Origin: Holophagaceae bacterium
GTDB lineage: Bacteria; Acidobacteriota; Holophagae; Holophagales; Holophagaceae
Reading direction: 5' to 3'
DNA length: 10,289 nt
Assembly: GCA_025355915.1 (NCBI GenBank)
Contig: JANXYT010000106.1
Span: 1-10,289 of the forward strand
In this document: positions 4,058 through 10,289 of the stretch, piece after piece
How positions within the stretch are numbered: position 1 is the stretch's first letter
Layout: each line of letters opens with the position of its first letter
The notes under the pieces: generated by a model
The model's input: only the letters and a program-made list of their open reading frames with translations
Database searches by the model: none
Told to the model about the DNA's origin: nothing
Position numbers and translations under genes: made by a program

Positions 4058-5596
4058 ATGCCCCATGAATCGACCCCTGAGCCGCGCGACCTGCTGGACC
4101 GCATCCTCACGGCCCTGGTCTATGACGTGGCCATCGAATCCCCCCTGGAACCGGCGAAGCAGTTGACGGCCCGCCTCGGCACCCCCGTCTGGTTCAAGCG
4201 GGAGGACCTGCAGCCCATCTTCTCCTTCAAGCTGCGCGGCGCCTACAACAAGCTCGCCCACCTGAGTGAAGCCACCCGCAGCCTCGGGGTCATGGCCGCC
4301 TCGGCGGGCAACCATGCCCAGGGCGTGGCCCTCGCCGCCCAGCGCCTGGGCTGCCGGGCCACCATTGTCATGCCGGTGACCACGCCCCGCATCAAGGTGG
4401 ACGCCGTACGAGCCCTGGGCGCCGAGGTGGTGCTCCACGGGGACACCTTCGACCTGGCCTTCGCCCATTCCCAGACGCTCCTGGCTCAGGGCGGCGCCAC
4501 CTACATCCACCCGTACGACGATCTCGATGTCATCGCGGGCCAGGGCACCATCGGCATGGAGCTGCTCCGCCAGATGCCCCGGGGCATGGAGGCGGTGTTC
4601 GTGCCCGTGGGCGGCGGGGGTCTCATCGCGGGCATCGCCGCCTACCTGAAGCGCCTCCAGCCCGGCATCCGCGTGATCGGTGTGGAGCCGGTGGACGCCG
4701 ATGCCCTGCACCGCTCCCTGGCGGCGGGCCATCGCGTGAAGCTGGACCAGGTGGGCCTCTTCGCCGACGGCGTGGCCGTGAGCATGGTGGGCGAGCACAG
4801 CTTCGAGCTCTGCCGGCAGTTCGTGGACGAGGTGGTGCTGGTCAGCACGGACGAGATCTGTGCCGCCATCAAGGACGTGTTCGAGGAGAACCGGTCCATC
4901 CTCGAACCCGCGGGCGCCCTGGCGGTGGCGGGGCTCAAGGCCTGGTCGGAGCGGCACTGCGACCGGCTCCTGCCCGGCGGGCTGGTGGCGATCCTGTCGG
5001 GCGCCAACACCAACTTCGACCGCCTGCGCTTCGTGGCGGAACGGGCGGAACTGGGCGAGCAGCGCGAAGCCATCCTGGCGGTGACCATCCCGGAACGCCC
5101 CGGCAGCTTCCGCGCCTTCTGCGAGCGCATCGGCCAGCGGTCCATCACCGAGTTCAACTACCGCTACGCCGATCCCGCGCGGGCGCACATCTTCGTGGGG
5201 GTGCAGGTAACCGACCGCGCGGAAACCCAACTGCTGCTGGAACACCTCCGCGGCGATGGCCTGGAGGCGGAGGATCTCAGTGATAACGAAATGGCCAAGC
5301 TCCACATTCGGCACCTGGTGGGTGGCCGGGCGCCCTCCGTCACCCACGAGCGGGTGTTGCGCTTCGAATTTCCCGAACGGCCCGGCGCCCTGCTCCGCTT
5401 TCTGGACCGCATGAACCGGGGCTGGAACATCTCGCTGTTCCACTACCGCAACCACGGCGCCGACTACGGGCGCGTCCTGGTGGGTATTCAGGTACCGCCA
5501 GAGGACCAGATCGAATTCCAGGCCTTCCTCGATCAGCTGGGCTACGCCTGGGTGGACGAAGGCGACAACCCGGCGTACCGGTTGTTCCTGGCGTGA
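4058..5596 (+). CDS. ilvA: Threonine ammonia-lyase (threonine deaminase), biosynthetic long form
   Basis: This enzyme converts L-threonine to 2-oxobutanoate and ammonia, the committed step of isoleucine synthesis, in the cytoplasm. The 512 residues equal the usual E. coli-type long form. The fold-type II PLP domain occupies about residues 1-325: FSFKLRGAYNK contains the PLP-binding Lys58, SAGNHAQG (82-89) contains the substrate/PLP Asn85, and the phosphate-binding loop is GGGG at 185-188. Two ACT-like regulatory domains follow. One starts near 338 (AILAVTIPERPGS), the other near 432 (VLRFEFPERPGA), each with the Pro-Glu-Arg-Pro-Gly turn. This supports isoleucine feedback inhibition and valine relief, as known for the family. 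GGGAG at 4048-4052 is 5 bases before the ATG. A terminator-like hairpin in the leader suggests transcriptional control. No other ilv gene is nearby. Confidence 0.97.
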   Translation: MPHESTPEPRDLLDRILTALVYDVAIESPLEPAKQLTARLGTPVWFKREDLQPIFSFKLRGAYNKLAHLSEATRSLGVMAASAGNHAQGVALAAQRLGCRATIVMPVTTPRIKVDAVRALGAEVVLHGDTFDLAFAHSQTLLAQGGATYIHPYDDLDVIAGQGTIGMELLRQMPRGMEAVFVPVGGGGLIAGIAAYLKRLQPGIRVIGVEPVDADALHRSLAAGHRVKLDQVGLFADGVAVSMVGEHSFELCRQFVDEVVLVSTDEICAAIKDVFEENRSILEPAGALAVAGLKAWSERHCDRLLPGGLVAILSGANTNFDRLRFVAERAELGEQREAILAVTIPERPGSFRAFCERIGQRSITEFNYRYADPARAHIFVGVQVTDRAETQLLLEHLRGDGLEAEDLSDNEMAKLHIRHLVGGRAPSVTHERVLRFEFPERPGALLRFLDRMNRGWNISLFHYRNHGADYGRVLVGIQVPPEDQIEFQAFLDQLGYAWVDEGDNPAYRLFLA

Positions 5597-5761: not shown

Positions 5762-6910
5762 ATGAGCGAAGCGTTGAGTGGACCGGAACTGGTGGCCTTG
5801 GTGCAGCGGGTGTTTCAACCTCAACCCGGCGAAAGTGCGCTGGCCATCCTGGTGGATCTGCCGGACGCCAAGGTGTCGGACGACGCGAACTGGGCAGCCC
5901 GCCGGGACATCGCCGTGGCCTGGGCCGCAGAGCTGACGGCGCACCGCGCCGAACTGGGCCTGGACACGCACCTGGTGGTCTATCCCAATGTCCACACCAA
6001 CAACGGCGACCTGCCCGATCGCGCCTGGATCCACAGCAGCGGGCCCCTGCCCTCGTCGGCATTACTGGATCCCGCGGCGTCCCTGACCTTCGCGGAGATC
6101 TACGCCACGCATCCCATCCTCATCGCGCTCACCAAGTTCTCGGCCACGGCGCCGCTGAAGCTGGCCGCGAAGCAACACCCCATCCGCGCCGCCACCATGC
6201 CGGGCTTCCGGGCCGACATGATCCCCGCCCTGCGCCTGGACTACACGGAGGTGAACCACCGGGTGGAGCTCCTGAAAGACCTGCTGGACCGGGCCGAGGG
6301 CGCGGACTTCCGTTTCGACACGCCCGCGGGCCCCTGTGACCTGCACCTGGACCTGCGCCACCGCACGGGCCATGCGTCCGGCGGCCTGCTGCCCAAGCCC
6401 GGCGTGGCGGGCAACCTGCCCTCGGGCGAGGCCTACATCGTGCCCTACGAGGGCGAGCGCGACGGCGATCCCAGCCGCACGGCGGGCATCATGCCCGTGC
6501 AGTTCGGTGCCGAGCTCGTGCGCTACCGCATCGTGCGGAACAAGGCGCTGGAAGTCATCAGCGAAGGCCCCAAGTCCCGCGAGGAAGCAGCCCTGCTGGC
6601 CAAGGAACCCGCCTACGGCAACCTCGCCGAACTGGGCCTGGGCGTGCTTTCAGCCTTCGGCATCAAGCCCATCGGCGAGATCCTGCTGGACGAAAAGCTG
6701 GGCCTCCACCTCGCCTTCGGCCGCAGCGACCACTTCGGTGGCCAGGTGGGTCCCAAGGACTTCAGCGGCCCCGAAGCCGTCATCCACATCGACCGCGTCT
6801 ACGTCCCAGAAACCCAGCCGGATGTGAAGGTCGTGAGCGCCGATCTGAAAATGGCCGATGGCAGCGTTGTGGCGCTCATGCGAGATGGGGAGTATGCGGT
6901 GGGGTTCTGA
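5762..6910 (+). CDS. M29-superfamily metallo-aminopeptidase-like protein
   Basis: This 382-residue protein resembles thermophilic aminopeptidases (peptidase family M29, AmpS/AmpT), which remove N-terminal residues using a two-metal centre. The clearest signs are C-terminal. NLPSGEAYIVP supplies Glu223, NLAELGLGV supplies Glu290, GLHLAFG supplies His316, and VIHID supplies His342 and Asp344. These five correspond in order and roughly in spacing to the Glu, Glu, His, His, Asp metal ligands of M29. The N-terminal half is less conserved but shows the expected alpha/beta pattern. The same superfamily includes 2,5-dihydroxypyridine 5,6-dioxygenases, so an oxygenase role cannot be excluded from motifs alone. 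GGAGG at 5752-5756 lies 5 bases before the ATG. There is no signal peptide, so it should act in the cytoplasm. It follows ilvA by 165 bases with a repeat between, so it may have its own promoter. It converges on the nuclease pair. Confidence 0.78.
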   Translation: MSEALSGPELVALVQRVFQPQPGESALAILVDLPDAKVSDDANWAARRDIAVAWAAELTAHRAELGLDTHLVVYPNVHTNNGDLPDRAWIHSSGPLPSSALLDPAASLTFAEIYATHPILIALTKFSATAPLKLAAKQHPIRAATMPGFRADMIPALRLDYTEVNHRVELLKDLLDRAEGADFRFDTPAGPCDLHLDLRHRTGHASGGLLPKPGVAGNLPSGEAYIVPYEGERDGDPSRTAGIMPVQFGAELVRYRIVRNKALEVISEGPKSREEAALLAKEPAYGNLAELGLGVLSAFGIKPIGEILLDEKLGLHLAFGRSDHFGGQVGPKDFSGPEAVIHIDRVYVPETQPDVKVVSADLKMADGSVVALMRDGEYAVGF

Positions 6911-6977
6911 AGCGGCCACCCCGCATCTCATCAGTTACCAAGGGAGTCATTTCCTCAAACGAAAATGGAATCCCTAA

Positions 6978-7751
6978 TCACACCCTTCGTTTGCGCCGTT
7001 CGATGTTCTCGGCAGCCGCATGGGGCCTGCCGATAATCCCGAACAATTCCTGGAAACTTTCACGTAGGGTCTTCCGCTGACCACTGAAGACCTGACGATC
7101 CGCCTCTAATGGGCTTTGGTAGCGGAAGACCATGATGTCATCGCCGTTGGTCACCATGTAATACGGCGTCCCCATGAACATGGCGTAGCTGCGGGCTTGA
7201 CTCACATGGTCCTTCACCCGTTTTGTGGTTCGCTTGGCTTCGATGATCAGCAGAGCGTTGTCCATGCTCCGGTTCCGCCCATCGAAGAGCACAAAATCAG
7301 CCTCCGTAACGGTTCTCTTTGATCCCACGATGATCTCAATGGGAAAGCCATCTGCGCGATCATCTTCGGTGTAGCCCAAACGTTCGAGCAGCGGGACGAT
7401 GAAACGGATTTCGACCTCCTTCTCGGTCGCAAACTCCTTCTTAGCGATCTCGTCAAACCAAGCGTCTAGAGGGTTGGGTTCAGGTTCGGGCGCTGTGATC
7501 GGTCGGATAACGGACAGGGCAACCCAATCATCCCGGTCGCAGTCTGAGAGGGTAGGTAGGGTTAGTATTCCGACCTCAGTAAAAGCATTGGTTAGGTGCT
7601 GGAGACGATCTACGGTTCGAGTCTTGAAACCAAACTTGGCAAGGAGTGATCGCAGCCGCGTCCTTCGAATCTGCTTCGGGGCTGTGCTTATTGAGTCCTT
7701 GAGGGCAAGGACCGCAGCTTCAAATAACTCCTCTTCCAATCCCGTAGGCAT
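6978..7751 (-). CDS. HsdR N-terminal-like PD-(D/E)XK nuclease with a novel N-terminal region
   Basis: The protein has 257 residues. The C-terminal part (about 95-245) is a restriction-enzyme-type nuclease domain as in the N-terminus of type I HsdR. A helix with Glu114 (KEVEIRFIVPLLERLGY) is followed by Asp152 (EADFVLFDG), Glu171-Ala-Lys173 (LLIIEAKR), Gln185 (SQARSYAMF) and a TNGDDIMVFRY strand. All core PD-(D/E)XK residues are present, so DNA cleavage is plausible. Residues 25-80 (RRTRLRSLLAKFGFKTRTVD onward) look like a small helical or winged-helix-type domain, possibly DNA-binding; I cannot name it. The C-terminus is strongly basic (ERRKRRV). The ATG abuts the TAG of the upstream nuclease gene with no spacer, and AGGGA lies about 10 bases before it, so the two are a coupled operon. 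No helicase motor, methyltransferase or specificity subunit is attached or adjacent. Confidence 0.8.
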   Translation of the reverse strand: MPTGLEEELFEAAVLALKDSISTAPKQIRRTRLRSLLAKFGFKTRTVDRLQHLTNAFTEVGILTLPTLSDCDRDDWVALSVIRPITAPEPEPNPLDAWFDEIAKKEFATEKEVEIRFIVPLLERLGYTEDDRADGFPIEIIVGSKRTVTEADFVLFDGRNRSMDNALLIIEAKRTTKRVKDHVSQARSYAMFMGTPYYMVTNGDDIMVFRYQSPLEADRQVFSGQRKTLRESFQELFGIIGRPHAAAENIERRKRRV

Positions 7752-8825
7752 CTACTGTTGTCCCTTGGTGTAGAAAGTGGCAATAGACTTCAGGTTCTCC
7801 ACCAATTGGTATAGTTCCGTCAGGTCGTTGATCGACTTACGGGTTTCCGCTTTATGGGCATCAAAGACGCCGACTGTCTTCTGTTTTGAGCTGAAGTAGA
7901 AGCGGCAGATGGGCTTTCGATTGTTGTTATCGAAGAGGACCCCACAATAGCTCTGTGCATCTCGAATCATCACCCGTTTTGGGTCCACCACTTGCCGGAG
8001 AATCGCCCGGACGATGTAGAAGGCTTCCCATTCCTCTGGCGTGGTGATGATTTTGTCTTCCTCGTCCTGGGGCGGCATGACTGGTTCAGTGGTTTCAGCA
8101 GAGGCTGCCACGCTGTCAGCAAGCGCAACCTTGAGGCGGTCATTGATCTTGTCATTGACCAACTGCTGGAATGCCCGCTTAGTGAGTTGGGAGAACTGAT
8201 CCTTCACCACGTGGGTCATTCGACCGCTATAGACCTTCCCTGCCAGCAATCGAACGAACTCTTCGGTCGGATTGTGAAGCTGCTCATTGAGCACCCGCTG
8301 AATTTCCTTCGTGTATTTCAGGTCGGTGGCAGTCAAAAGGATGTTACTGATGTCAAAGGTGGTCTTCGTGAACTTCTTGAGTTCCTCGGCATCCTGATCC
8401 TTGAAGTCCAACAGGTTGAATTCCAGGAAGGGTTTGGCGTCCAACATGTTGGGTTGGTCTAGGTCGGTATAAAAGAAATACTGTGTGCCATTGGTAAGAA
8501 CACCGAATCGGGTCTCGGTAACTGTGAAGTAGCGGAACAGCTGCGTCGCCTGGATCTTCCGTAGGTCGGTCCCGTACTTCTTGCATTCCATGATGATGAT
8601 TGGCTTCCCGTCCCGAAAAATGGCGTAGTCCACCTTCTCACCCTTCTTCACGCCCACATCGGCAGTGAGTTCAGGTCGGACCTCCGTGGGATCGAAAACA
8701 TCGAATCCCAGTGCCTTGATGAAGGGCAGGACAAGAGCGTTTTTGGTCGCTTCTTCTGTCTGAAGATGCCCCGCCTGATTTGGCACGCGAGAGGCGATCA
8801 GCCGAAGTTGATCGAGGAAATCCAT
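7752..8825 (-). CDS. HsdR N-terminal domain protein, stand-alone restriction-type nuclease
   Basis: The protein has 357 residues and belongs to the stand-alone type I HsdR N-terminal-domain family (HSDR_N_2-like). It opens MDFLDQLRLIASRV, then a helix TEEATKNALVLPFIKALGFD (23-42) with the first acidic residue. The PD-(D/E)XK core has Asp66 (KVDYAIF) and Glu80-Cys-Lys82 (IIMECKK), followed by the QATQLFRYF helix (92-100) and the FGVLTNGTQYFFYTD strands. A helical middle region (about 145-235) leads to an acidic linker near 241-248. The C-terminal domain contains SYCGVLFDNNNRKPICRF (272-289), a segment I recall in full-length members of this family. The frame is open for 55 more codons upstream, but those look non-coding. 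The ATG at 8825 has GGAG 6 bases ahead and gives the family's usual N-terminus. It is the first gene of a two-nuclease operon and lacks the ATPase of true HsdR, so it is not a type I restriction subunit as such. Confidence 0.85.
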   Translation of the reverse strand: MDFLDQLRLIASRVPNQAGHLQTEEATKNALVLPFIKALGFDVFDPTEVRPELTADVGVKKGEKVDYAIFRDGKPIIIMECKKYGTDLRKIQATQLFRYFTVTETRFGVLTNGTQYFFYTDLDQPNMLDAKPFLEFNLLDFKDQDAEELKKFTKTTFDISNILLTATDLKYTKEIQRVLNEQLHNPTEEFVRLLAGKVYSGRMTHVVKDQFSQLTKRAFQQLVNDKINDRLKVALADSVAASAETTEPVMPPQDEEDKIITTPEEWEAFYIVRAILRQVVDPKRVMIRDAQSYCGVLFDNNNRKPICRFYFSSKQKTVGVFDAHKAETRKSINDLTELYQLVENLKSIATFYTKGQQ

Positions 8826-9018
8826 CTGCGGCTCCGAAATGAATGGATCAGGTTGAACTCCTTCCAGATAAGCATGATTACCCCTTGGCCACAATTTTCG
8901 TGTGATGCAAGCCCGGAGGTTTTTCCCTCTTCCAGCCTTTGGCGGAGTCGGGAAGAAATCCTTCCCATCCCACCTATCCCTGTCCATCACCGGCTAAAAT
9001 GGTTTTCTCCCCGGCCCC

Positions 9019-10289
9019 TCACCGTTTCGGATAAGCGGGTACTGGCGGGAATACCGGCGTGGGGTTGTCGCGAAGCTGCTTCAGCAGGGTTTCAATGCCC
9101 ACTTCCAGCTGGCGGTCGTGGCCCTGCAGGGTGCTGGTGGGATCGTTCTCCACGGTGAGGTCGGGGTCGGCGCCGTGGTTTTCCACCCACCACTTGCCTT
9201 CGCGGCCGTAGAAGCCGTTGTTGCTCTGCTCCACGCGGCCGCCGTCCAGGGTGAACTGGGTGTTGATGATGCCCACCAGGCCGCCCCAGCTGGGCACGCC
9301 CACGATGGTGCCCAGGTTCCGGGCCTTCACGTGCATGAGAAAGGCTTCGCCGTCGCTGCCGTTCTGTTCGTTGCTGAGGAAGACGTAGCGGCCGTCGGAG
9401 GCTGTGTTGGGGTAGCGGAAGGGGCCCATGCCGCGCATGACGTTGAAGCCCACCTGCTTGCGCTCCAGCTTGTCGATCAGGAAGTACTCGGTCCAGCCGC
9501 CGCCGTTCCCGCGTACGTCGATGACGAGGCCTTTCCTGTAGCGGAAGGCCCGCCAGTACTTGTCGAACTGGCCGATGTTCTGATCGCCCATGGCCGTGAT
9601 GTGCATGTAGCCCAGCTGGCCGTTGGACGCCTTGTCCACGGCGGCGATGTTGCTGGCGATCCAGCGCTCGTAGCGCAGGTTCCAGTCGCTGCCGACGGGT
9701 TCCACCTCGAGGCTGCGGGCGCCCTCCAGCGTCGGCTGGCTGTTCACGGTGAGCCTCACCTTCTGGCCCTTGATGACCTGCAGGCGCGCCTGGATGGCTT
9801 CCGGCGCCCGCAGGAGCTTGCCGTCGATGGCCAGCAGGTACTCGCCCTCCTTCACTTTGGGTGCCGGATCCGCCAGGGGCGCCTTGAGGTCGCGGGCATA
9901 GGCCGTGGGGCCAAGAACCTTGGTGAACTTGTAGACGCCGTTCTCAACCGTGAAGTCGGCGCCCAGGTAGCCCGTGAACACCAGACTGGGAGCGAGCCGC
10001 GCGGGACCGAAGTCGCCGCCGCCCACGTAGGTGTGGCTGACATTCAATTCGCCCACCATCTGGCTCAGCAGCCAGTTCAGTTCCTGGCGGGAGTTCAACC
10101 CCGGCAGCCAGGCGCGGAACTTGGCGCCGATGGCGTTCCAGTCGTTGCCGTTCATGTCCTTGTCGTTGATGAAGTCCCGGTACCAACGCCAGGTGTCCTC
10201 GAAGATCTGCTTCCACTCCTCGCGGGGCACCGCGGTCATGGTCATGCGCTCCAGGTCCAGCTTCTCGGGCAGGAGCTTCGTGGTGAACA
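9019..10289 (-). CDS. Tricorn-type protease, C-terminal half (S41 family), N-terminus outside the window
   Basis: The frame is open to the window edge, so the upstream beta-propellers are not seen. The visible part (about 422 residues) covers the tricorn core: a helical C1 domain, a PDZ-like domain (KEGEYLLAIDGKLLRAPEAI) and the C2 S41 domain (VIDVRGNGGGWTEYF). The tricorn tetrad is present: Ser-His in ELNVSHTYVGGG (codons 10038-10033), the nucleophile in NGSDGEAF (Ser at 9357-9355), and Glu in VENHGADPDL (9183-9181). Tricorn degrades peptides of about 6-12 residues and often feeds aminopeptidases, so the M29-like enzyme nearby is a conceivable partner. An internal ATG at 10245 is not the start, because the frame upstream (TTKLLPEKLDLER) is continuous protein-like sequence. 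The C-terminus ends with a proline-rich tail (NPTPVFPPVPAYPKR). Whether a signal peptide exists cannot be seen. Confidence 0.92.
   Translation of the reverse strand, partial: FTTKLLPEKLDLERMTMTAVPREEWKQIFEDTWRWYRDFINDKDMNGNDWNAIGAKFRAWLPGLNSRQELNWLLSQMVGELNVSHTYVGGGDFGPARLAPSLVFTGYLGADFTVENGVYKFTKVLGPTAYARDLKAPLADPAPKVKEGEYLLAIDGKLLRAPEAIQARLQVIKGQKVRLTVNSQPTLEGARSLEVEPVGSDWNLRYERWIASNIAAVDKASNGQLGYMHITAMGDQNIGQFDKYWRAFRYRKGLVIDVRGNGGGWTEYFLIDKLERKQVGFNVMRGMGPFRYPNTASDGRYVFLSNEQNGSDGEAFLMHVKARNLGTIVGVPSWGGLVGIINTQFTLDGGRVEQSNNGFYGREGKWWVENHGADPDLTVENDPTSTLQGHDRQLEVGIETLLKQLRDNPTPVFPPVPAYPKR

Follow-up and report, generated by a model that had tools for sequence, protein, structure and literature searches.

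A gene pair encoding two stand-alone HsdR-N nucleases in Holophagaceae: a possible restriction-like cassette

Contig JANXYT010000106.1 of a Holophagaceae bacterium (assembly GCA_025355915.1), a stretch of 10,289 nucleotides that was analysed whole and is referred to here as the window, encodes two small proteins, g1 and g2, each with an HsdR-N-type nuclease domain of the PD-(D/E)XK fold. The two genes abut without a gap. On the strength of comparative sequence analysis, we give about an even chance to the proposal that they make up a small, horizontally mobile, restriction-like cassette directed against DNA, most likely that of phages. Both nucleases are of known type; the novelty lies in their lineage-specific pairing, which is real yet seen in Holophagaceae only.

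Two divergent nucleases at a zero-spacer junction

The g1 gene (8825-7752, minus strand) encodes a protein of 357 amino acids and g2 (7751-6978, minus strand) one of 257 amino acids. The stop codon of g1 is followed directly by the start codon of g2 (TAG-ATG, 7749..7754, minus strand, zero spacer), exactly as the initial annotation had placed it, and a sequence judged by eye to resemble a Shine-Dalgarno element, AAGGGA, lies inside the 3' end of g1 just upstream of the junction. A mechanical call of open reading frames (ORFs) begins the g1 frame at a GTG at 8990; the likely start is 8825, because the Met1-Asp2-Phe3 that it specifies is kept in at least 90% of 47 aligned proteins.

Above the curated Pfam cut-off, both proteins match HSDR_N / HSDR_N_2 and nothing else, and with the D-E-K residues conserved we place both in this nuclease family. 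In g1 the nuclease domain covers approximately residues 20-140 (D66, E80, K82 and Q95) and is followed by a helical middle part and then by a C-terminal domain (residues 259-354) that has no Pfam match; its predicted fold weakly resembles MotA/DUF419 domains, so that a double-wing assignment can be made tentatively. In g2, a predicted winged helix (approximately residues 7-86) precedes the nuclease domain (approximately 85-257; D152, E171, K173 and Q185). The two proteins align with each other at 26% identity over 98 amino acids (E = 0.013 as a single comparison). The four catalytic-site residues named for g1 do not vary among 47 aligned sequences, nor do the four of g2 among 50. The initial annotation's description of two divergent stand-alone HsdR-N nucleases is confirmed by the Pfam matches, the mutual alignment and the intact active sites. 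Between g1 and its copies in two genomes of the same genus, the rate of nonsynonymous change (dN) is 0.09-0.11 and that of synonymous change (dS) ~1.9-2.3, near saturation; as dN is low against a nearly saturated dS, g1 is under strong purifying selection.

Further clues to the identity of g1 come from profile searches. The phrog_4225 'endonuclease' profile matches it with E 5e-121, aligning residues 1-352 with profile positions 2-354 of 357, and a match over nearly the full length makes g1 a member of that family. The relatives inspected elsewhere have no g2 beside them. Relatives of g1 are labelled 'predicted type IV restriction endonuclease' by JGI, a label that we take to be COG4748.

By Pfam and by fold, the nuclease domain is that found at the N-terminus of type I HsdR proteins (EcoR124I and the Vibrio vulnificus structure 3h1t). 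Unlike those proteins, g1 and g2 are short chains with other predicted DNA-contacting domains: Pfam sees the N-terminal nuclease domain alone and no helicase motor in either chain, and neither hsdM nor hsdS is present among the 11 window ORFs scanned. Lacking the motor and an adjacent hsdM or hsdS, the pair does not belong to type I. The window is the entire contig, and the earlier statement that the pair has neither methyltransferase nor helicase holds for its 11 scanned ORFs, in none of which Pfam found either; the pair thus resembles type IV systems in having no cognate methyltransferase encoded alongside. For the genome as a whole that statement needs qualifying. PF02384 has no match in the 77.6%-complete assembly, but one gene for an N6/N4 methylase (PF01555) lies on a different contig (C55), and with such a gene present and the assembly incomplete, a methylase acting from another place in the genome could still serve the pair.

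Pairing in Holophagaceae and solitary relatives elsewhere

Among the 77 Holophagaceae genomes surveyed, g1 is found in five (E <= 1e-20) and a full-length g2-family gene in three; in five more genomes, the matches to g2 cover only the nuclease portion of larger proteins. Each of the three genomes with a full-length g2 also carries g1, for which the chance probability is p = 1.4e-4 (three genomes drawn from 77, five having g1; the calculation ignores relatedness). The genes are adjacent in two of the three. Besides the window these include G066, taken as Mesoterricola silvestris and so of another genus, where g1 and g2 are 60% and 52% identical to those of the window and lie 13 bp apart. The window's genus is probably Geothrix, and the third genome, G008, taken as Geothrix fuzhouensis, is of this same genus; it has g1 and g2 ~694 kb apart, its g2 belonging to a divergent subfamily (39%). 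A further genome of the genus, G007, has g1 (82%) and no full-length g2.

For each of six further relatives of g2 (73-88% identity), the listed g1 relatives include one (82-86%) whose contig has exactly the same size (3653, 5478, 5514, 59641, 600091 and 3479236 bases). We infer from these equal sizes, rather than from the contig sequences themselves, that g1 and g2 are co-located on all six; on the three shortest, their separation would be at most 1.8-3.7 kb. There are 11 g2 clusters that are at least 71% identical, and for 7 of them, the window's included, g1 is present on an equally long contig. The other four (P0003, P0005, P0009 and P0010) have no listed g1 match, although clustering at 90% could hide one. 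The divergences of the two genes are also correlated: r is 0.635 over seven pairs without M. silvestris (23 of 5040 permutations were as high) and 0.966 with M. silvestris included (33 of 40320).

Outside the family, as far as examined, each gene mostly occurs without the other. The g1 family is huge, alone elsewhere and frequent in prophages: 7997 of the best 8000 candidates (those with most shared words) pass as relatives, and tblastn finds g1 relatives in 60 plasmid records, with at least 80% of the query covered in 25, and in 18 phage records. Four phage records were inspected: three have g1 between repressor and integrase, and in the fourth it adjoins a HicAB pair, ahead of neck and tail genes. 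A search of IMG/VR confirmed g1 in 99 stretches, from which we retained 80 loci, and a g2-profile hmmsearch of their stop-to-stop ORFs of at least 50 amino acids found g2 in none of the 80, 68 of which have at least 900 bases downstream of g1 and 12 less. Weak matches to the g2 profile in three of these loci (L139, L149 and L153) fall within the g1 frame itself. A general g1-g2 operon was rejected on this count.

The g2 family is small (122 proteins among 924 candidates) and its members are likewise mostly alone. It occurs in seven plasmid records, one of them covered to at least 80%, in none of the phage records, at one IMG/VR locus and at two loci in a scan of genome contigs. Searches of 396 genomes of the phylum (E <= 1e-30, with G066 not among the matches) and of 297 genomes of the order around Magnetospirillum each found g2 in two genomes, both of the latter previously found, and neither search gave a new pair. 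No g1 match is present at the g2 loci L002 and L003 (Phaeospirillum and Magnetospirillum), L004 (a Deinococcus plasmid) or L014 (a viral contig); the Magnetospirillum genome has its g1 on a separate contig from g2. On the viral contig L014, the frames around the g2-family gene (4689-5486, ~50% identity) were judged by eye to be phage-like, suggesting that phages or prophages transport g2 as well. That homologues are almost never adjacent, which the initial annotation had named as grounds for abandoning its proposal, is true outside Holophagaceae so far as these loci show, and untrue within the family, where two of the three genomes with a full-length g2 have it beside g1.

A search of the literature, with subscription papers mostly outside its reach, found no description of the g1-g2 pair and no experimentally characterised member of the g1 family.

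Candidate roles for the pair

Some relatives have neighbours suggestive of defence or mobility. The M. silvestris pair lies in a run of low guanine-plus-cytosine content (GC; 0.40-0.58 against 0.65-0.74 around it) that is followed by a Fic protein (PADLOC SoFic, E 2e-117), an ORC-CDC6-like protein and tRNA-Arg, whilst in G. fuzhouensis g1 begins 285 bases past tRNA-Leu. A BREX cluster on a plasmid of Deinococcus sp. NW-56 (L073:7479-26211) includes a g2 relative, flanked on one side by a DarT1-associated NADAR gene and on the other by pglZ-brxL. The cluster also has brxC, an N-6 DNA methylase, an HNH endonuclease, DarT and an IS3 element, with the HNH, DarT, IS3, NADAR and g2-family nuclease genes all lying between the methylase gene and pglZ. 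A compact defence module, as first suggested, gains from such neighbours and from the linkage in Holophagaceae; a role in defence is nevertheless deduced from genomic context.

Known systems provide partial parallels. Shedu (SduA) is a stand-alone PD-(D/E)XK defence nuclease; it was not among the PADLOC matches at E <= 1 and matches g1 and g2 only weakly by fold. No BREX gene was found among the window ORFs scanned or among the M. silvestris neighbours scanned, so the location expected of a BREX accessory nuclease is that of one g2 relative and not of the window pair. BrxU, a type IV enzyme of the GmrSD family, is reported to give phage protection within a BREX island on an Escherichia fergusonii plasmid (PMC8565348). 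The Deinococcus g2 relative resembles BrxU in lying in a BREX cluster, whereas g1 and g2 differ from it in having an HsdR-N rather than a GmrSD nuclease and, in the window, in lying outside any BREX cluster.

If the pair is a restriction-like cassette, g1 and g2 would be translated from one mRNA, and the predicted DNA-contacting domain of each nuclease (the winged helix of g2, the possible double-wing of g1) would take the place that helicase, specificity subunit and methylase have in a type I enzyme. Invading DNA would then be cut without ATP-driven translocation. No co-encoded methylase would protect the cell's own DNA, which would instead escape because the nucleases target modified DNA or a DNA state specific to infection, in a type IV-like manner. 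A type IV-like or infection-triggered nuclease is the best remaining reading. In its simplest form the cassette would be an operon that stacks two enzymes complementing each other, since both families mostly occur alone, with a shared complex as a possible extension.

Several observations weigh against the cassette proposal. Some relatives of g1 and g2 adjoin ordinary genes (from annotation and, for L002 and L003, by eye) and the window's own neighbours are of housekeeping type. PADLOC has no model fitting g1, and its matches to g2 are partial, low-scoring restriction-modification matches to the nuclease domain. The slot in which the pair sits, considered as a defence hotspot, was rejected on the mixed contents of its scanned ORFs: it is a variable locus and not a defence island as such.

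The most serious alternative, which we rate as plausible though short of probable, is that g1 and g2 are independent stand-alone defence nucleases with separate targets, housed in one mobile cassette under a common promoter, their adjacency reflecting no more than the stacking of defence genes. Both families have solitary members, which favours this, as do the viral g1 loci without g2, the four g2 loci without a g1 match, the wide separation of the genes in G. fuzhouensis and the presence in G007 of g1 without a full-length g2. The lineage-specific linkage favours cooperation instead: linkage in two genera, correlated divergence and the no-gap junction in the window suggest selection for joint expression.

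The same gene order in two genera, the junction and the co-divergence would also suit a nuclease built as a heterodimer, as the initial annotation had suggested, or as a heterotetramer, with each protein supplying one active site for one of the two strands, and the complementary architecture (a winged helix in g2, a different C-terminal domain in g1) fits this too. We consider such a heteromer, a special form of the cassette proposal whose likelihood overlaps with it, rather unlikely, as both families have members without the other and neither therefore generally needs a partner. A fuller version, slightly more doubtful again, is a two-component, ATP-independent, methylase-free enzyme in which two divergent HsdR-type nucleases with DNA-reading domains of their own would assemble on the target and cut one strand each. 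If true, it would represent a new organisation of restriction, built in Holophagaceae from two formerly solitary enzymes.

A DNA-processing or element-maintenance pair concerned with recombination, repair or plasmid or prophage stability is improbable: g1 relatives do occur in prophages and plasmids, and the PD-(D/E)XK fold serves repair and recombination too, but the pair is sporadic in the family survey, no integrase, recombinase or replication gene is present among the 11 window ORFs scanned and the g2 relative in the BREX cluster points towards restriction.

Linkage of a member of a very large bacterial and prophage family to a differently built second nuclease offers a compact test system: the genes are just two and small, their catalytic residues are clear, and versions with and without the partner occur naturally. 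Through it one could ask what solitary HsdR-N proteins do and how they avoid cutting the genome of their own cell without a methylase of their own.

The insert and its variable slot

The pair lies in an AT-rich insert (6911..9018) between a gene for a Tricorn/S41-type peptidase (9019-10245, minus strand) and AP, a conserved gene without a Pfam match (5762-6910, plus strand). The GC content of g1 and g2 is 0.52-0.54, compared with ~0.59-0.72 outside the insert, which bears out the insert's description in the initial annotation. A repeat scan found no repeat flanking it, and the window has no tRNA and no Rfam family. A regulatory scan of the window gave a single promoter-like site and a single terminator-like site; both are on the plus strand and neither scores above shuffles.

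The S41 gene is present in 31 of 47 genomes of the same genus. We compared 29 S41 loci besides the window, in 28 of which AP could be placed (the contig ended in the other). The S41/AP gap is ~1 kb or less in nine loci and ~1.5-4.9 kb in 19, ranging across the genus from ~0.14 to 4.9 kb (L053-L072); three of the short slots measure ~0.14-0.34 kb. Apart from the g2-family gene of G. fuzhouensis, the slots compared contain no tblastn match to either g1 or g2. That gene (L016:8694-9515), of another subfamily (39% identity to g2, GC 0.48), is too divergent to be a vertical orthologue of g2, so that one slot would have received the family twice. Other contents include a sensor kinase, an LA2681-type HEPN protein, a GntR-aminotransferase with a Ser/Thr kinase and an erythromycin-esterase-like protein. 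Ten of the 58 slot ORFs were scanned by Pfam and five of these had no match; six of the 19 slots carry a sensor kinase gene from one and the same family.

The S41 peptidase frame (9019-10287 in the window) runs past the end of the contig. Since the open frame is 1069-1225 amino acids long in 27 of the 29 same-genus loci, the window carries just the C-terminal part of the peptidase.
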